This document shows, in pieces, positions 24,399-32,268 of a stretch of 64,000 bases of DNA. The stretch is from Hyalangium ruber (GTDB lineage: Bacteria > Myxococcota > Myxococcia > Myxococcales > Myxococcaceae). The position numbers and the translations under genes are program-made. Numbering within the stretch: position 1 is the stretch's first letter; the number at the start of each line of letters is the position of its first letter. The notes beneath the pieces are model-generated. The model did no database searches. It was given only the letters and a program-made list of their open reading frames with translations, and was not told where the DNA came from. The stretch spans positions 1 through 64,000 of the forward strand of contig NZ_JAXIVS010000005.1 in the NCBI RefSeq assembly GCF_034259325.1, read 5' to 3'.

Positions 24399-24422
24399 CC
24401 TTGCTACAGTTCCCGCTGCCCT

Positions 24423-24451
24423 GTGGAGGCGGCGGGAATTGAACCCACGCC
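24423..24451 (-). other. tRNA/tmRNA 3'-end fragment (candidate attachment site)
   Basis: Read on the minus strand, GTGGG-TTCAATT-CCCGC is a complete T-arm (five pairs including one G-U, seven-base loop), followed by CGCCTCCAC, which looks like an acceptor-stem 3' strand and discriminator. No D-arm, anticodon arm or matching 5' acceptor strand is in place. The sequence resembles the 3' end of ssrA (tmRNA) more than a usual tRNA (recollection of tmRNA ends, not a search). Such fragments are typical scars of integrases that target the 3' ends of tRNA or tmRNA genes. Confidence 0.5.
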
Positions 24452-24480
24452 GGGCGGTGCGAAACCTCTATTCGTAGCGG

Positions 24481-24561
24481 AGAATTGATGCCCTCTGTGG
24501 TTTCAAGGGCTTACGGATGATTAATAATCAGAATTCTTGAAAGAATTGATGCCGCTCTGTG
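24481..24561. repeat. AT-rich arm-like repeats
   Basis: AGAATTGATGCC followed by CTCTGTG occurs at 24481-24499 and again (with one extra base) at 24542-24561. Between them lies the inverted repeat AATTCTT-GA-AAGAATT (24532-24547). The stretch is much richer in A and T than the surroundings. Paired direct repeats beside a tRNA-like end resemble integrase arm sites. Confidence 0.4.
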
Positions 24562-24579: not shown

Positions 24580-24954
24580 CTACCTCACTGAGAGAATGCG
24601 CTCTCGCTCCAGGACTTGGCGGACCTCTTCGCTTGCGGCCTTGATGTTCCCCTTCGGAAAGGGGATGTAGGTAAGCCCGGCGATGTTCGAGAAACTGGAA
24701 CAACCATCCTCCAGCATGATGATCGCACGCCTGAATCCGAGGCGCCCTTGGAAGAGCCCTGCTTCGTGGACGACGTTCTCACGGGCTCGCCGCGTTTGAT
24801 CAGCCTGTTCATCCTCCGGCGTCATGATGAGGAATGCGAAGACGGCTGAGTCGAGCATCTCTTCCAGCCGCTCCTTTGTCGTCAAGCCAGCGGCAGGCGC
24901 CATATTGAACTCGTCCGCCTTGAGCCCAAGCCGCTCTTGGATTTGGTAGTTCTG
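24580..24954 (-). pseudogene. TIR-like nucleotide-binding protein (PF10137-like), N-terminally truncated
   Basis: The readable part runs QERLGLKADEFN, then TTKERLEEMLDSAVFAFLIMT, then NVVHEAGLFQGRLGFRRAI, then a C-terminal FSNIAGL and FPKGNIKAA. This order is what I know from the predicted nucleotide-binding TIR-like family (PF10137, also found as the effector domain of some CBASS systems). Full-length members start with a GHGRS-type segment and WRxLKDF before ERLGL; here the frame becomes unrelated just upstream of 24954 and stops at 24997-24999, where the toxin gene on the other strand begins. An ATG at 24903 exists but would leave out conserved sequence. It is probably a dead or relic effector. 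Confidence 0.65.
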
Positions 24955-24998: not shown

Positions 24999-25625
24999 AT
25001 GCGGCCACGCTGGACAGTTGTCGGGGCGTTGCTCCTGTTCGTAAGCGGGTGCGGAACGACCGGGGCCATCCCATCACCGGGGGCACAGGCAGCGCGCTCC
25101 AAACTGGAAGGGCCACGGATCAGCGTCGTTGCTGGGAGTTTCAAGCCCACTTTTTACTATGGCCCGTGGCAGTGCAGTCAGCGGTGGATGACCTACTGCC
25201 ACAGGCAGTGTGCAGCCGAGGGCTACGCCCTCAAAGGCTGCATGTGGATTGCTGATCTCAAGCTGGATTGGGAGGGGACGCTCCACAACGCGGGCGGACG
25301 CTACGCGATCACTCACTGTTGCTGTGCCTATCCCGTACTCTCGAAGGAGGCGACGAAAGCAGCCCGCACTCGGTGGGAGAAGTTCCGCGACTCCTTTCGG
25401 AAGGACTGGGGCGAGAAATTTGGAGACTGGCCAGCGGGAGAAGACGCGTCTTGGCCCGGCCATCATCTCCGCGATCTCAAGCATGGCGGCGATCCAGTTG
25501 ATCCCGACAACATCCTGCCGACGCCCCCCACCATTCACGACCTACTGAACAAGGAGTATCCGAGGTGCTACGACGGGCTGCCGCCCTGGAATACGGTCGG
25601 ACCTGATCTTCCCTACGTGGATTAG
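24999..25625 (+). CDS. Lipoprotein toxin with HNH/GHH-like C-terminal domain (SitA-like candidate)
   Basis: A 208-residue protein. The lipobox is FVSGC (Cys about residue 18), so it should be an outer-membrane-directed lipoprotein. A Cys-rich middle section follows (WQCSQRWMTYCHRQCAAEGY, ALKGCMWIADLK, HCCCAYP; about 57-115). The C-terminal 80 residues read WPGHHLRDLKHGGDP...NILP...TIHD, a layout like HNH/GHH-superfamily nucleases of polymorphic toxins. ATG 24999 has GGAAGG six bases upstream (ATG 24993 is an alternative). An SMI1/KNR4 gene follows directly, the usual immunity partner. Lipoprotein toxins with swapped C-termini and cognate immunity genes are known in Myxococcus as SitA/SitI, spread by outer membrane exchange. 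Membership of that system is inference. Confidence 0.65.
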   Translation: MRPRWTVVGALLLFVSGCGTTGAIPSPGAQAARSKLEGPRISVVAGSFKPTFYYGPWQCSQRWMTYCHRQCAAEGYALKGCMWIADLKLDWEGTLHNAGGRYAITHCCCAYPVLSKEATKAARTRWEKFRDSFRKDWGEKFGDWPAGEDASWPGHHLRDLKHGGDPVDPDNILPTPPTIHDLLNKEYPRCYDGLPPWNTVGPDLPYVD

Positions 25626-25630
25626 TGACG

Positions 25631-26104
25631 ATGCCGACGCCCATTGACAGCTTGCTTGAAGAGATTTCACGCGATCACTTCCCGCATCCACCCGCCACGC
25701 CTGCGGAGATCGAGGCATTCGAGCAGCGCGTAGGCTGGAAGCTGGATCCAGACCTGCGGGCCTTCTATCTGCACTGCGATGGAGCAGAGTTGCTCAAGCC
25801 CCGTCCGGTTTCGCCTTATCGGATCCTTCCCTTATCCAAGATCGTACGAGCGCGCGTTGCCATCTACGGAGAGGATGAGGACAAGCTGGGCCCGGCTTCT
25901 GTGTACGCCGTGTGCGACGTTCAAGACGGCAACTACATCGTGATCGACGTGAGCCAGCCGGTGAACGGTCGCTATCCCCTCTTCGACGCGTGGCACGAGG
26001 CATGGCCGGATCCGTACTACTGCGAGAAGGTCGAAGACGCGTTCTCAGAGTTCTTGGAAGCGGCTTTGCGTTCCCGCCGTCCCGCCTACTGGCTGGAACG
26101 GTAA
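25631..26104 (+). CDS. SMI1/KNR4-family immunity protein
   Basis: A 157-residue protein with the SMI1/KNR4 (SUKH) pattern: the early TPAEIEAFEQRVGWKLDPDL segment (only part quoted exactly), LRAFYLHCDGAELL, the central SPYRILPLSKI, then GNYIVIDVS, and a C-terminal FSEFLEAALRS helix. SUKH proteins are the commonest immunity proteins of polymorphic toxins and would neutralise the toxin encoded directly upstream. GTG 25625 overlaps the toxin stop codon TAG; ATG 25631 is six bases on. The tight coupling supports a toxin-immunity unit. Confidence 0.85.
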   Translation: MPTPIDSLLEEISRDHFPHPPATPAEIEAFEQRVGWKLDPDLRAFYLHCDGAELLKPRPVSPYRILPLSKIVRARVAIYGEDEDKLGPASVYAVCDVQDGNYIVIDVSQPVNGRYPLFDAWHEAWPDPYYCEKVEDAFSEFLEAALRSRRPAYWLER

Positions 26105-26207
26105 AGAGAAGACCCTCAAGGTGCACCGCGCCCGCATCATCCAGAAGCTGGGAGTGGACTCGATGGCGGAGCGGGTGCGGTTCGTGGACCGGCTGGCCCA
26201 GAGCTGA
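26103..26207 (+). pseudogene. C-terminal stump of a LuxR/FixJ-type response regulator
   Basis: Directly after the immunity gene stop, an open frame reads KTLKVHRARIIQKLGVDSMAE and ends with RLAQS and TGA 26205-26207. This is the recognition helix and C-terminal end of a GerE/LuxR HTH as in FixJ-like regulators (usually SEKTVKVHRxRVMxKL). Nothing of the receiver domain or first HTH half is present; upstream sequence belongs to the immunity gene. I take it as the right-hand scar of the accessory insertion that began near 24423. Confidence 0.7.
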
Positions 26208-26383: not shown

Positions 26384-28255
26384 ATGAGTGACACCCAGCG
26401 CCTGCCAGAATCCCTGGTGGGATACACGCGCCTGTCCACTGTTGCCACCCTGCTGCTCACCTCGGCCGCGCTCGCGCAGCCTGCGGGCCTGCCAGCGTTC
26501 GAGCTGGAGCGGCTGCAACTCAATCCCGGCGCCCGTGACAGTCTCGTGTTGTCGACGGGCGACCTGCTGCAGCGGGGCCAGTACCGCCTCGGCCTCACCG
26601 CGCATTATGAGCGCGAGCCGCTCGTGCTCCTCGAGCACGGCGAGCAGAGCGCCACCATCATCTCCGACCGCGTAACGGCGCACCTGAGCGGCGCCTACGC
26701 CGTCACCGACTGGCTCGAGCTGGGCGCGCAGGTGCCCGTGGTGGCCCAATGGGGCCCGGACATCTCGGCGCTGGGCCTGTCCGCGCCCCGTACCCTGGCA
26801 CTCGGCACCCCCTGGCTGCAGGGACGCGCCGGCCTCCTCTCCGAACGGGGGGGTGGACCGCTCGACCTGGGCGTGCACCTCGGCGCGGCGCTGCCCCTGG
26901 GCAGCTCGGCGGCCCTCACCCGGGATCAGGGCTTCGTCTTCTCCCCTCGCCTGGGCCTCGGCAAGCAGCTCGGAGACACCTGGCGCGTGGGCGCTGATGT
27001 GGGCGCGCTCGTCCGCACCAAGACGTACGCGCTCTCCGGCAACACGCGGAGCCCCCAGGACGAGCTGGGCGTGGAGGTGCATGGCGGCCTCAACCTCTCC
27101 GCCGCCCTGTTCGGCCTCAAGGAGGAGCTGGTGGTGCGCGGCGCGCTGCCCGTGGCGCGCTCGCCCTCCTCCCTGGAAGTGCTGCTCGGCCTGCGTGCCC
27201 CCCTGGGCGCTGGAGCCGAGGTGTACGCCATGGGCGGCCCCGGCTTCGGAGAGACTCCCGGCACTCCGCGGTTCCGCGTGCTCGCGGGCGTCTCGTTCAC
27301 CCCCGAGGCCGCTCCCGTGAGCCGGTGCGTGGAGGGCCAGCCCTACGCCCTGGCCCAGTGCCCGGAGCTCGACGCGGATGGCGACGGCGTGAAGAACGTG
27401 GCCGACCGCTGCCCGTCCGACAAGGGACTCGCCCAGCTCAACGGCTGCGCCGACACCGATGACGACAAGGACGGCATCCTCAGCCTGGCTGACCGCTGCC
27501 CCGCGCAGGCGGAGAACACCAACGGCTATCAGGACGACGACGGCTGCCCAGATGATCCGGATACGGATGGGGATGGCCTCGCCGACTCGAAGGACGCGTG
27601 CCCGCGCGACGCGGAGGACCTGGACGGCTTCGAGGACGCCAACGGCTGCCCGGATCCGGACAACGACCAGGACGGCCTCGCCGACGCACGCGACGCCTGC
27701 ATGAACGAGGCGGGCCCGAAGGAGAACCGCGGCTGCCCCGACAAGGATCGCGATGGGGACGGCCTCGTCGACCGGCTCGACAACTGCCCCGACGAGAAGG
27801 GCCCCGAGAAGAACAAGGGCTGCAAGGAGAAGCAGTTGGCGCAGATCGACGAGGGGCAGATCCGCATGCTCGAGTCCGTCTTCTTCGAGCAGAACGAGGA
27901 CGTCATCAGCAAGCGCAGCTACAAGCTGCTCGACACGGTGGCGGCCATCCTCCAGTCGCACCCGGAGATCCAGAAGCTGCGCATCGAGGGCCACACCGAC
28001 AACAAGGGCGATGCCGCGTACAACCTGGAGTTGTCGCAGCGCCGTGCCGAGGCGGTGGCGAAGTACCTCGTGGGCAAGAGCGTGGTGCGCGAGCGCCTGG
28101 ACCCCAAGGGCTTCGGTCCGGCCCAGCCCATCGCCAGCAACGACACCCAGGAAGGCCGCGCGAAGAACCGCCGCGTGGAGTTCAAGATCGTTGGAGACGT
28201 CGAGGGCGTGAAGACGCAGCAGGGCGCGCCCACCTCCGATACCCTCGAGAAGTGA
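26384..28255 (+). CDS. OmpA-family outer-membrane protein with TSP3 (calcium-binding) repeats
   Basis: A 623-residue protein. It has a signal peptide (about 1-31) and a 300-residue beta-barrel-like region rich in alternating hydrophobic strands. Then come six or so thrombospondin type-3 repeats with DxDxDGxxDxxDxCP motifs (DADGDGVKNVADRCP, DTDGDGLADSKDACP and others, about 330-475). Last is an OmpA/MotB peptidoglycan-binding domain with LRIEGHTDNKGDAAYN and SQRRAEAVAKYL. It should anchor the outer membrane to peptidoglycan, with calcium-stiffened repeats between. GGAG lies six bases before ATG. The DUF4215 protein gene starts 12 bases later, so the two are probably one operon. Confidence 0.88.
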   Translation: MSDTQRLPESLVGYTRLSTVATLLLTSAALAQPAGLPAFELERLQLNPGARDSLVLSTGDLLQRGQYRLGLTAHYEREPLVLLEHGEQSATIISDRVTAHLSGAYAVTDWLELGAQVPVVAQWGPDISALGLSAPRTLALGTPWLQGRAGLLSERGGGPLDLGVHLGAALPLGSSAALTRDQGFVFSPRLGLGKQLGDTWRVGADVGALVRTKTYALSGNTRSPQDELGVEVHGGLNLSAALFGLKEELVVRGALPVARSPSSLEVLLGLRAPLGAGAEVYAMGGPGFGETPGTPRFRVLAGVSFTPEAAPVSRCVEGQPYALAQCPELDADGDGVKNVADRCPSDKGLAQLNGCADTDDDKDGILSLADRCPAQAENTNGYQDDDGCPDDPDTDGDGLADSKDACPRDAEDLDGFEDANGCPDPDNDQDGLADARDACMNEAGPKENRGCPDKDRDGDGLVDRLDNCPDEKGPEKNKGCKEKQLAQIDEGQIRMLESVFFEQNEDVISKRSYKLLDTVAAILQSHPEIQKLRIEGHTDNKGDAAYNLELSQRRAEAVAKYLVGKSVVRERLDPKGFGPAQPIASNDTQEGRAKNRRVEFKIVGDVEGVKTQQGAPTSDTLEK

Positions 28256-28266
28256 GGCGACATTTC

Positions 28267-31200
28267 ATGGATACGTATGACATTGAAGCTCTCTGCCAGG
28301 AGTCGGCGGCCGTGAAGCGCTCGCGCGCGGGTATCTCCGCGGCGGCGCTCGCGCTCGCCCTCCTCTCCACCCTCACCGGCTGCGGGACGGATGTCTCGCA
28401 GCCTCCTCCCCCCGGGCCCACGCTGGCGAGCCAGTCGCGGCCCCTCGCCGGAGACGGAAAGCTCCAGCCCGGCGAGCAATGTGACGATGGCAACACCACG
28501 AACGGCGACGGCTGTTCCAGCACCGGCGTCATCGAGTCCGGCTACCTGTGTCACGTCCCCGGCCGGGCCTGCTCCCTGGCGAGCCTGTGCGGCAACAACA
28601 CGACGGACTCGGGCGAGGCCTGCGACGACGGCAACGTGACGGACAACGGCAACGGCTGCTCGGCCACGTGCGACCTGTCGCTGTGCGGCAACGGCGTATT
28701 CAACAACCGCCAGTACCCGTCCTTCGCACAGGAGATCTGCGACGACGGCAACCGCTTCGAGGGTGACGGGTGCAGCCGGCTGTGCGAGGTGGAGCCCGGC
28801 TTCGCCTGCGCGGGCAACCCGAGCCGCTGCGTGCCCGCGGGCGTGGCGCTGTTCAACACCGGCGTCGACGCGAACAACCGCCGTCTGGAGACGGGGAAGG
28901 ATCCCCACTGGTTCTACGTGGGCACCACCACGGGCGCGGACCCCGGCCCGCGCAACGCCTCGGACTGGCCGCAGGAGGTCCAGACGGCGCGCTTCATGGC
29001 GCCGCAGGACTCGTTCACCTGCGTGTACCAGGACTTCATGGTGCCTTCGACGACCCACGTCCCGCAGTTCCGTCTGCAGCTGGCCACCTTCAACGACAAC
29101 GACTTCTCCAGCGCCAAGGTGAACGGCGTGAACATCACGCCCGTCATCGTCAACAACCCACCCGGCCAGCCCTGGCAGAAGAACATCTTCCGAGAGTTCG
29201 GCACTTCGGCGGCCTGGCGCGCCGGCCTCAACCGCATCGAGCTGTGCAATGAAAACGATCCCGGCGAGGAGCCCAACGCCTACCGCTATCTCTTCGTGGA
29301 CGCGTACGACGACAAGTGCGGCGACGGGGTGATTTCGCTGCGCGAGGAGTGCGACGACGGCAACACCACCCCGGGCGACGGCTGCAACGCGAGCTGCGGC
29401 ATGGAGCCCGGCTACGCCTGCACCGGCCAGCCCAGCCAGTGCGCCGCCACCTGCGGCAACGGCGTGCAGAACGCGGGCGAGCAGTGCGACGACGGCAACA
29501 CCACCTCGGGTGACGGCTGCAACAGGAGCTGCCGGGTGGAGGCCGGCCACGCGTGCCCCATCGCCGGACAGCCCTGCGTGACGACCTGCGGCAACGGCGC
29601 CATCGACCCCGGCGAGCAGTGCGATGACGGCAACGGGTACAACTCCGACGGCTGCTCCGCGGCGTGCCGCATCGAGCGCGGCTACGAGTGCGCGGACGCT
29701 CCGTCCGCCTGCGCCCCCCTGTGCGGCAACGGCCGGATGGACAGCGGGGAGCTGTGCGACGATGGCAACACCACCCTGGGGGATGGGTGCTCCAATGCCT
29801 GCACCCTGGAGCTGGGCTACGCGTGCCCCACCGTCGGCCAGCCCTGCGTGCAGACCTGCGGCAACGGCACGGTGGACCCCGGTGAGCAGTGCGATGACAA
29901 CAACCTGGCGCCCCTCGATGGCTGCGGCACCGAGTGCCGCGTCGAGCCGGGTTACGCCTGCAGCACGCCCTCGAGCGGGTCTTCCGTGTGCGCCGCCACC
30001 TGCGGCAACGGCACGCTGGATCCGAACGAGCAGTGCGATGACAACAACACGACGGCCGGTGATGGCTGCACGCCGGGCTGCCGCGTCGAGACCGGCTACT
30101 CCTGCAGCGGGCAGCCGAGCACCTGCGGCACCGTGTGTGGCGACGGCATCCTGGCGGGCGGCGAGCAGTGCGACACCGGCAACACCACCGCCGGTGACGG
30201 CTGCGATGCGTCGTGCCACATCGAGACCGGCTGGAGGTGCCCGGCACCCGGGACGGTGTGCTTCCAGACGTGCGGCAACGGCACGGTGGAGTCCGGCGAG
30301 CGGTGCGACGACGGCAACACCACCGCCGGCGATGGCTGCGGCGGCACCTGCCAGGTCGAAAGCGGCTACCTCTGCAGCGGCGCCCCCAGCGCCTGCCTCA
30401 CCACGTGCGGTGACGGCATCGTGGCGGGCACCGAGGTGTGCGACGACGGCAACCTGTCCGGGGGCGACACGTGCTCCCCGCGCTGCCTGTGGGACGTGGG
30501 CCAGGCCTGCACGGCTTCCGGCGTCTGCGACGGCATCTGCAACCCCGCCAACAACACCTGTGCGCTCGCCAACGTCTGCGGCAACGGCCTCGTCGAGGGC
30601 TCGGAGAGCTGCGACGACGGCAACACCGCCTCCGCCGACGGCTGCAGCTCCACCTGCGCCCTCGAGCCCGGGTCCAGCTGCTACGGCAACGCGCCGTCCA
30701 TCTGCCACCTGAACTGCGGCGACGGCAATCTCGGCGAGGGCGAGCAGTGCGACGATTCCAACGTCACGGCCGGTGATGGCTGCGCCACCCACTGCACCAT
30801 CGAGGCCGGTTACAGCTGCACCGGCAACCCGTCGGTGTGCGCGGTGCGGTGCGGCGATGGCGTCAAGGCCGCGTCCGAGGCCTGCGACGACGGCAATACC
30901 GTCTCCGGTGACAGCTGCAACTCCGCCTGCGCCGTGGAGAGCGGCTCCAGCTGCCAGAACACGGGCGTGCAGGCCTTCTTCACCCGCCGCGGCCGCACCG
31001 ACTGCACGCAGGTGTCGAGCCTCACCGCTCCGTCGCTGGCCTCCAGCACGTCCCAGCCCGTGCTGAGCGTGCCGGGCCGCTACCGCATGCACTACGTCTC
31101 GGGAGCCGTCAGCTACTCGGGCGGCGTCAACTGGTACCCCGGCATCCTCGGCGTCAACGTCGACGCGGGCGCCGGTGTGCAGCGCTTCTCGCTCGGCATC

Positions 31201-32268
31201 GACTCCCCGACCGTCCCGCCCTCCGCCACGCGTGATGAGGCCATGACACTCGGCTTCCCGCTGCTGCGCGACTTTGACGCGGGCACGGGAGAGGTGCGCC
31301 TGGCCCTCATCGACACGGACTGCGACCTCGGCGACAACAGCGACACCGCCGTCACCTACCGCGTGGACGCGCTGTCCATTTGCCAGTGGATTCCCGCCAT
31401 CACGAGCCCTTCCTCGGGTGGCCTCTCGGGTCCGAACATCGGGGGCACCGCCTCGCCGGGCGCCACCGTGCATGTGTACATCGACGGCGGCACCACGCCG
31501 GCCTGCACCGCCACCGCCGATGCCTCCGGCCATTGGACGTGCACCCTCTCCGGCGTCGACGCAGGGCCGCACTCGGCCGTGGTCACCTCCACCCTCGTGG
31601 GTGCCACGGAGACCGCACCCGCCATCAACTTCACCCTCGACCTGACGCCGCCGGCCGCGCCCGTCATCACGGGTCCGAAGCCGGACTCCGTGCTCGCCAT
31701 CTCGACGCCCGCGCTGAGCGGTGCGGCGGACCCGAGCAGCGTGGTGACGGTGCGCGAGGGCTCGACGGTGCTGTGCACCGCCACCGCCAATGACAGCGGC
31801 GAGTGGAGCTGCACGCCGTCCACGCCGCTCGCCGATGGCCCACACACCGTGACGGCCACGGCCTCCAACGCCGCGGGGACCACCAGCCCGGTGTCCAACT
31901 CCGTCACCTTCACCACTGACACCCAGGCGCCCGATACCACCATCCGCCACGGCCCTCCCTCGAGCACCGAGGACAACGCCGCGGCGTTCGGTTACGCGTC
32001 GAACGAGAATGGCGTGCGCTACGAGTGCAGCCTGGATAGCAGGGACTACGCTCCTTGTGAGGACGCCTACGACGTCAAGCCCGGGGAGCACACGCTGAGC
32101 GTGCGCGCCGTGGACGCCGCGGGCAACGTGGATGCCACGCCCGCCGTGTACACGTGGACGGTGGAAGACACCCGCACCTTCGCCGGTGGTGGATGCAGCG
32201 CGGCGCCCGCCTCGTCGTGGTTGGCGCTGCTGGGCCTGCTGGGGCTGCGCCGCAGGAGCCGCCGCTGA
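28267..32268 (+). CDS. Giant Cys-rich DUF4215 surface protein with MYXO-CTERM tail
   Basis: A 1333-residue protein. The N-terminal 38 residues contain a lipobox-like LTGC, then by my count 15 DUF4215 repeats of the form CDDGNTTxGDGCxxxC, each followed by LExGYxCxGxPSxC-type spacers. A DUF4114-like or jelly-roll segment (about 185-345) interrupts repeats 3 and 4. After the repeats come Ig-like domains (about 1040-1220, with STPALSGAADPSS) and an Ig-like segment ECSLDSRDYAPC. The end is GGGCSAAP, a hydrophobic helix and RRRSRR: the MYXO-CTERM sorting signal, where the Cys is processed and lipidated on the way to the surface. Likely a large cell-surface or adhesin-like protein acting with the upstream OmpA protein. 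Confidence 0.88.
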   Translation: MDTYDIEALCQESAAVKRSRAGISAAALALALLSTLTGCGTDVSQPPPPGPTLASQSRPLAGDGKLQPGEQCDDGNTTNGDGCSSTGVIESGYLCHVPGRACSLASLCGNNTTDSGEACDDGNVTDNGNGCSATCDLSLCGNGVFNNRQYPSFAQEICDDGNRFEGDGCSRLCEVEPGFACAGNPSRCVPAGVALFNTGVDANNRRLETGKDPHWFYVGTTTGADPGPRNASDWPQEVQTARFMAPQDSFTCVYQDFMVPSTTHVPQFRLQLATFNDNDFSSAKVNGVNITPVIVNNPPGQPWQKNIFREFGTSAAWRAGLNRIELCNENDPGEEPNAYRYLFVDAYDDKCGDGVISLREECDDGNTTPGDGCNASCGMEPGYACTGQPSQCAATCGNGVQNAGEQCDDGNTTSGDGCNRSCRVEAGHACPIAGQPCVTTCGNGAIDPGEQCDDGNGYNSDGCSAACRIERGYECADAPSACAPLCGNGRMDSGELCDDGNTTLGDGCSNACTLELGYACPTVGQPCVQTCGNGTVDPGEQCDDNNLAPLDGCGTECRVEPGYACSTPSSGSSVCAATCGNGTLDPNEQCDDNNTTAGDGCTPGCRVETGYSCSGQPSTCGTVCGDGILAGGEQCDTGNTTAGDGCDASCHIETGWRCPAPGTVCFQTCGNGTVESGERCDDGNTTAGDGCGGTCQVESGYLCSGAPSACLTTCGDGIVAGTEVCDDGNLSGGDTCSPRCLWDVGQACTASGVCDGICNPANNTCALANVCGNGLVEGSESCDDGNTASADGCSSTCALEPGSSCYGNAPSICHLNCGDGNLGEGEQCDDSNVTAGDGCATHCTIEAGYSCTGNPSVCAVRCGDGVKAASEACDDGNTVSGDSCNSACAVESGSSCQNTGVQAFFTRRGRTDCTQVSSLTAPSLASSTSQPVLSVPGRYRMHYVSGAVSYSGGVNWYPGILGVNVDAGAGVQRFSLGIDSPTVPPSATRDEAMTLGFPLLRDFDAGTGEVRLALIDTDCDLGDNSDTAVTYRVDALSICQWIPAITSPSSGGLSGPNIGGTASPGATVHVYIDGGTTPACTATADASGHWTCTLSGVDAGPHSAVVTSTLVGATETAPAINFTLDLTPPAAPVITGPKPDSVLAISTPALSGAADPSSVVTVREGSTVLCTATANDSGEWSCTPSTPLADGPHTVTATASNAAGTTSPVSNSVTFTTDTQAPDTTIRHGPPSSTEDNAAAFGYASNENGVRYECSLDSRDYAPCEDAYDVKPGEHTLSVRAVDAAGNVDATPAVYTWTVEDTRTFAGGGCSAAPASSWLALLGLLGLRRRSRR

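Follow-up and report, generated by a model that had tools for sequence, protein, structure and literature searches.

Two adjoining genes of the myxobacterium Hyalangium ruber raise the question of whether they form one of the two-gene weapons that are passed between touching cells and by which clonemates are told from strangers. They lie in the window, the 64,000-nucleotide stretch that was analysed here (contig NZ_JAXIVS010000005.1, positions 1 to 64,000, forward strand), and a sequence-only reading had proposed a SitA-like lipoprotein toxin, delivered by TraA/TraB outer membrane exchange (OME), with a SUKH immunity gene. The pair is probably a sitAI-like kin-discrimination cassette delivered by OME, a judgement that builds on analogy with known systems and on co-occurrence with traA. 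As read from the sequence, a predicted lipoprotein signal is followed by a carrier that is short, conserved and rich in Cys, and then by an HNH nuclease end that is polymorphic; a SUKH gene is the constant neighbour.

The probable toxin and its SUKH gene

The toxin gene (24999 to 25625, forward strand) is an open reading frame encoding 208 amino acids from ATG 24999, with GGAAGG visible by eye 6 nt upstream of that codon, or 210 from the in-frame alternative ATG 24993, from which residues are numbered here. Its N-terminus is a predicted signal peptide ending in the lipobox V17-S18-G19-C20 (24993 to 25052, forward strand); a pattern search finds a lipobox in 98 of 109 open-frame loci of the family and not in the other 11. 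The putative delivery domain is a Cys-rich carrier of about 80 residues (25098 to 25334, forward strand; approximately residues 36 to 114), delimited by invariant Cys and Trp residues and by the structure model, and ending just past HCCC. The motifs behind the earlier proposal of a lipobox-bearing, Cys-rich carrier are all present in the window toxin, namely VSGC, CxxxWxxYCxxxC (C61 to C73), GCMWIADLK and HCCC, and the cysteines C61, C69, C73, C83, C109 to C111 and C192 are invariant in a 41-sequence alignment (A2). In the whole-toxin AlphaFold2 model (mean pLDDT 86.2), the carrier is beta-rich with one helix. Structure comparison of the carrier region returned PUR repeats and methyltransferases at Z 4-5, within background, from which nothing is concluded. 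Three HMMER matches between the Cys part of the whole-protein profile and viral 2A proteases (E 0.11) were judged to be due to chance. No sigma-70-like promoter or terminator was matched around the cassette.

The C-terminal domain (25335 to 25622, forward strand; residues 115 to 210) is a predicted HNH nuclease of the beta-beta-alpha-Me (His-Me) fold, with H157 and H158, N173 and H182 providing HH, N and H. This assignment, which sharpens an earlier suggestion of a GHH/HNH-like end, follows from the agreement of profiles and fold comparison, every single score being weak. H157, H158, D161, G165, G166, N173, P176 and H182 are invariant in alignment A2 (n = 41), and G165 and N173 remain nearly invariant in the more diverse alignment A3 (n = 20). 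The full HH-N-H pattern is found in 108 of 110 open-frame copies, the exceptions being L018, which has a deletion of the catalytic region, and L137, without the Asn. By itself, the C-terminus of the window toxin matched no Pfam nuclease model, and the Pfam HNH model PF01844 matched 5 of 16 members, all weakly (lowest E 0.014). When a nuclease-only profile was compared with 177,635 PDB sequences, the top three were Rhs2-CT (E 0.13), pyocin AP41 (0.28) and pyocin S8 (0.65); in the two alignments displayed, HH, GG and N stand in register, and in AP41 the last His does too.

Modelling of the domain alone gave a mean pLDDT of 83.7 for the best of five models and of 81.7 to 53.1 for the remaining four. 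Structural neighbours were sought by aligning the domain model to 110 chains preselected by Foldseek. The best rows, in a tool for which Z below 8 may indicate a common arrangement, were the GVE2 HNH nuclease (Z 6.0, the highest here), the Gme HNH nickase (5.6), Rhs2-CT (about 5.5) and the type I-F Cascade HNH (4.8), with colicin and pyocin DNases next from Z 4.4 downward. By entry, 5h0m aligned with Z 6.0 over 76 residues at 3.3 Å, 8cm0 with Z of about 5.4 over 63 residues at 4.2 Å, and colicin E9 (1v15) with Z 4.4 over 68 residues at 3.4 Å. Going by their titles and, for some rows, by the families to which they belong, 49 of the 50 listed rows are HNH or His-Me nucleases; many rows are the same colicins, and the exception is Atu4351. 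A whole-protein Foldseek search returned nothing at E < 0.001, ranking a gasdermin pore chain first (probability 0.08) and Rhs2-CT, 8cm0, second (E 0.24, probability 0.99). Rhs2-CT/RhsI2 and the colicin/pyocin DNases (E9, E7, AP41, S8) share the HNH fold and the HH-N residues, AP41 also the last His, whereas their carriers, an Rhs cage in the first case and receptor and translocation domains in colicins, are unlike the short Cys-rich carrier here. Their immunity proteins presumably have folds other than SUKH.

Directly after the toxin, as had been claimed, lies an SMI1/KNR4 (SUKH) gene (25625 to 26104, forward strand; PF09346, E 5.6e-19, 69.4 bits against a cut-off of 25.4). Its GTG start at 25625 shares one nucleotide with the stop codon of the toxin gene, and ATG 25631 is an alternative start. 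SUKH is described as immunity for many HNH toxin families, including WHH and GHH (PMC3482391). The constancy of this neighbour was surveyed at 145 loci from full-length and carrier searches, or 126 without duplicates; loci that came from IMG/VR, from scanning named genomes or from searching with the nuclease do not enter this count. A toxin was counted as open-frame when a single stop-free tblastn match ran from residue 50 or earlier to residue 200 or later, a definition under which damage to the signal region is possible. An intact SUKH gene is present downstream of all 110 open-frame toxins examined, and the gap between the matched parts has a median of 8.5 bases, is at most 18 bases in 90% of cases and reaches 673 at the largest. 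Sixteen toxins are broken. Beside these the SUKH gene is intact in 11 cases and partial in 2, and in the other 3 the stretch examined contains no SUKH gene. With L018 included, 12 of 17 disabled toxins stand beside an intact SUKH gene, and none of the other 109 open-frame toxins is without one. Among the SUKH-less loci (L045, L130 and L128), only L128 is a clear loss: L045 is an interrupted copy whose longer stretch, L143, has a SUKH start cut at the stretch end, and L130 is close to a contig end. This pattern, in which SUKH is mostly kept beside dead toxins and never missing from the open ones examined, should be expected of a toxin and its antidote.

Two further observations concern the same loci. 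At L132, L006, L012 and L116, a second full or partial SUKH gene, or a second piece of the cassette, lies behind the first, forming small poly-immunity arrays. Separately, the broken toxins L126, L127, L136, L186, L187, L188 and L190 change frame at approximately residues 93 to 126, some one way and some the other, and are followed by a SUKH match. These changes near the carrier-nuclease boundary may mark a site that mutates often, may have been selected because they silence the nuclease, or may be errors of assembly.

Distribution and polymorphism of the family

The toxin family is present in 60 of the 145 genomes of the order, which shows that the cassette is not a chance occurrence. It occurs in 7 of 46 genera, with one to eight matches per genome, and all toxin-bearing genomes fall within one taxonomic family. 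Named records with the family (47 loci) include Corallococcus, Myxococcus, Pyxidicoccus and Citreicoccus. H. ruber has a second copy (C14:301095-301721), 50% identical and accompanied by its own SUKH gene. A scan of 20 members gave a best Pfam match at E 0.013 (HNH) and a best NCBIfam match at E 0.0032 (a lipoprotein signal model); the family is clearly covered by no model of either collection.

Among the matches listed, the nuclease profile was found in at least 60 of 195 genomes of the phylum, with up to nine matches per genome; 59 of these genomes carry the family, and the other, G022, is without it and has a generic HNH open reading frame of 191 amino acids (E 2.7e-4). Eight further nuclease matches were fetched: six (L186, L187, L188, L190, L192 and L193) are frameshifted or incomplete family copies or a copy with the carrier, and in the other two (L189 and L191) no carrier can be recognised and stop codons lie upstream. 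The nuclease was not established on another carrier in any of the listed matches that were read. The family has no match in plasmid and phage records. In IMG/VR, eight family loci were found, one on a contig as long as a whole bacterial contig (74,417), so that they are at most candidates for phage carriage.

Pairwise identities over 109 loci (5886 pairs), with L018 left out, average 0.60 in the carrier, 0.57 in SUKH and 0.52 in the nuclease. The partial correlation between nuclease and SUKH given the carrier is 0.45 (p 0.001 by label permutation, a test that ignores phylogeny), and that between carrier and nuclease given SUKH is higher, at 0.61. Carrier identity of at least 0.95 coincides with nuclease identity of at most 0.65 in 18 pairs, and the reverse combination in none. 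A set of 73 carrier-matched pairs (35 loci), selected on residues 47 to 105 and not on the nuclease, locates the change. Identity falls from 0.99 at residues 106-111 to 0.70 at 112-117 and 0.37 at 118-123, then ranges from 0.40 to 0.86 through residue 189, rises to 0.98 at 190-195 and stays at about 0.85 to the end. Mean SUKH identity is 0.68 in these pairs, and in 18 pairs matched on the nuclease core it is 0.92 (minimum 0.79), with a carrier mean of 0.91 (minimum 0.77). The constant carrier of the 73 pairs, together with SUKH tracking the nuclease, suggests that nuclease and immunity can change together while the carrier stays. On these sequence comparisons, the family reads as a polymorphic toxin-immunity family at the level of alleles.

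The carrier had also been expected to recur with unrelated C-termini. No such case was found, the carrier being joined to an unrelated domain or fold in none of the 126 distinct loci, and non-modularity with varying alleles is likewise described for the published families SitA4, SitA6 and SitA7 (PMC8546572). Seven apparent carrier fusions (L124, L125, L128, L130, L131, L134 and L143) were rejected, being copies that are interrupted or have lost sequence through truncation or deletion; the last 25 or so residues of L128 are unrelated, and an Rhs gene next to L124 runs on the opposite strand. The SitA-like reading therefore stands for the HNH end, for the presence of traAB and for a nuclease polymorphic at the allele level, but not for a carrier combined with unrelated C-terminal domains.

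Proposed delivery and known relatives

Delivery is most likely by outer membrane exchange, on the analogy of SitA proteins. The toxin would be lipidated and sorted to the outer membrane; fusion of outer membranes by TraA and TraB would hand it on to neighbours in contact that carry matching TraA receptors. The carrier may then help the nuclease across the inner membrane, where the nuclease would cut DNA (or RNA), and cells with the matching SUKH protein would survive. According to PMC5562445, sorting to the outer membrane goes with the absence of Lys at +2 and of Ala at +7 after the lipidated Cys. The window copy has Gly at +2 and Ile at +7 and by this rule is predicted to go to the outer membrane. 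Among the 98 lipobox loci of the family, none has Lys at +2 and 10 have Ala at +7, which by the same rule speaks against outer-membrane sorting of those relatives.

The traA and traB genes that this route involves, for which a search of the genome had been proposed, are present, adjacent to each other on C19 at about 107.9-111.7 kb (TraA: NF033759, 1058 bits, cut-off 750; TraB: NF033763, 949 bits, cut-off 700). Across the order, TraA is above cut-off in 62 of 145 genomes, including 58 of the 60 with the toxin. The two toxin genomes without TraA and TraB above cut-off are G060 (960 contigs), with a TraA fragment covering 1-415, and G065 (800 contigs), with no TraA; this absence fits a missing stretch of a draft assembly. 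TraA is present without a toxin match in G077, G106, G119 and G121. The co-occurrence follows one clade, so that shared ancestry confounds it, and it is consistent with OME.

A separate observation concerns the genes downstream. The window encodes an OmpA/TSP3 protein (26384 to 28255, forward strand) that matches the TraB model at 252 bits, against a cut-off of 700. Next to it a large Cys-rich protein with DUF4215 is encoded (28264 to 32268, forward strand). The pair is like the traB/traA type, yet it is not TraAB, and TraB-like matches number 21 to 39 per genome in six genomes searched.

The strongest competitor, although rather unlikely, is that the same toxin-immunity pair travels by another contact route, such as outer membrane vesicles or a Tad-like or type VI system, instead of TraA/TraB. 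Tad-like and type VI killing are described in myxobacteria (PMC10433427), two toxin genomes are without TraA and TraB above cut-off, and the carrier matches no escort domain compared (SitA6). Against it stand the outer-membrane-type residues that follow the lipoprotein signal of the window copy and the TraA matches in 58 of 60 toxin genomes. Delivery by OME remains the preferred reading, with the carrier's lack of clear homology to SitA6 and the confounded co-occurrence counted against it. If it is correct, predictions of kin compatibility from annotated sitAI repertoires could miss this family, which is unnamed in Pfam and NCBIfam.

The common plan with SitA1/SitI1 of Myxococcus xanthus, an OME-delivered pair, comprises a lipoprotein, a C-terminal WHH nuclease, SUKH directly downstream and a genome with traAB, as described in PMC5562445. 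The two differ in the N-terminal part, which in the SitA1 query has 507 residues against about 80 in the carrier here, and in the overlapping sitB gene upstream of SitA1, in place of which no forward-strand open reading frame of at least 80 amino acids lies between 24477 and 24993. The carrier is also far below the SitA escort domain of about 375 residues given in PMC8546572. This length is not strict for SitA proteins, since the accepted SitA6 model has only 209 positions in all. SitA6, described as DUF2380/TIGR02269 with double-CXXCG immunity (PMC12077181), resembles the present toxin as a short, non-modular myxobacterial lipoprotein toxin with several copies per genome, H. ruber having nine TIGR02269 matches above cut-off, and differs in its immunity protein, which is not SUKH. 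Membership in SitA6 was rejected: hhalign aligned 66 columns, confined to the surroundings of the HH part, with a probability of 5.8 and a pair E-value of 0.0065, and a scan of 20 members at E up to 1 brought up neither TIGR02269 nor PF09533. The AHH model (PF14412) by which SitA4 is described was absent from the Pfam results for the scanned members. SitA7, compared by description only, is alike in being non-modular and in its predicted DNase (PMC8546572).

Elimination leaves SitA7 as the published family with which this one could most easily be identical, and such identity falls only slightly short of an even bet. SitA4 or another described family is improbable, and the remaining weight, about equal to that on SitA7, goes to the family being new; these odds are a matter of judgement. 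In a bolder and more tentative reading, this would be a seventh family of SitA type, so far unreported, whose delivery module is the smallest of any: a Cys-rich carrier of about 80 residues, probably disulfide-locked, would suffice to bring an HNH nuclease from the donor's outer membrane to the cytoplasm of its neighbour. Such a family would diversify by swapping the immunity gene and the nuclease core, leaving the carrier constant and the C-terminal tail less variable than the core. PMC8546572 reports that no envelope entry factor was found for SitA6 and SitA7; if delivery is by OME, a very short carrier would be a simple object for asking how an outer-membrane lipoprotein toxin reaches the cytoplasm.

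Flanking remnants and the remaining alternatives

The cassette looks inserted, as it coincides with a modest dip in G+C content (55-62% across 24.5-26.0 kb, in three steps of 500 bases, vs 63-73% elsewhere in 20-30 kb) and is flanked by remnants of TIR, tmRNA and LuxR genes. Upstream lies an N-terminally truncated CAP12/Pycsar TIR-domain remnant (24580 to 24903, reverse strand; PF10137, 73.2 bits, profile positions 39-117 of 119), which probably does not belong to the system. Immediately behind the SUKH gene, a C-terminal remnant of a LuxR/GerE regulator (26106 to 26207, forward strand; PF00196, E 5.4e-5, 23.2 bits against a cut-off of 23.5, profile positions 31-56 of 57) is a possible insertion scar and likewise no part of the system. 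A scan of the 126 loci found it in the window and in one match judged spurious (L252).

These surroundings bear on a second alternative, an intracellular or self-directed device, either a toxin-antitoxin pair or a phage defence, for which the lipobox would be incidental. The adjoining TIR remnant hints at a defence island, and the lower G+C and the tmRNA 3' scar point the same way. The TIR piece is truncated, however, and has no blastn counterpart at the other loci compared; most copies have a lipobox signal peptide, which is unexpected for a cytoplasmic toxin, and a carrier that is kept while nuclease and immunity diverge is the mark of polymorphic delivered toxins. Such a device is very unlikely. 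Myxobacteria are predators that secrete many hydrolases, and a nuclease of the usual secreted or surface-bound sort, serving nutrition or predation and with SUKH as an unrelated neighbour, would suit that lifestyle, but it is hardly credible against a SUKH gene that follows every open-frame copy examined, co-varies with the nuclease and stays intact beside 12 disabled toxins.

The tmRNA remnant is a 3'-end fragment (24421 to 24495, reverse strand; Rfam RF00023, E 4e-5, 17.7 bits, under the gathering score of 47), and ARAGORN found no intact tmRNA gene in the window. Similar 3'-end fragments are scattered through the same genome (C13:8949, C16:195743, C16:197292, C26:14810, C3:579987, C1:748741, C1:201852 and C31:32238), and another lies at L004:2752-2796 on the reverse strand. 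They are 87-96% identical to that of the window over 45-68 bases, and no intact tmRNA gene was found in the seven flanks of scattered fragments examined. A long match to the tmRNA fragment occurs at 2 of 173 loci searched, namely the window cassette and its close relative in G081, where the fragment follows the SUKH gene by about 150 bases. The fragments look like the product of repeated integration at the tmRNA 3' end, the one in the window being a possible integration-site scar.
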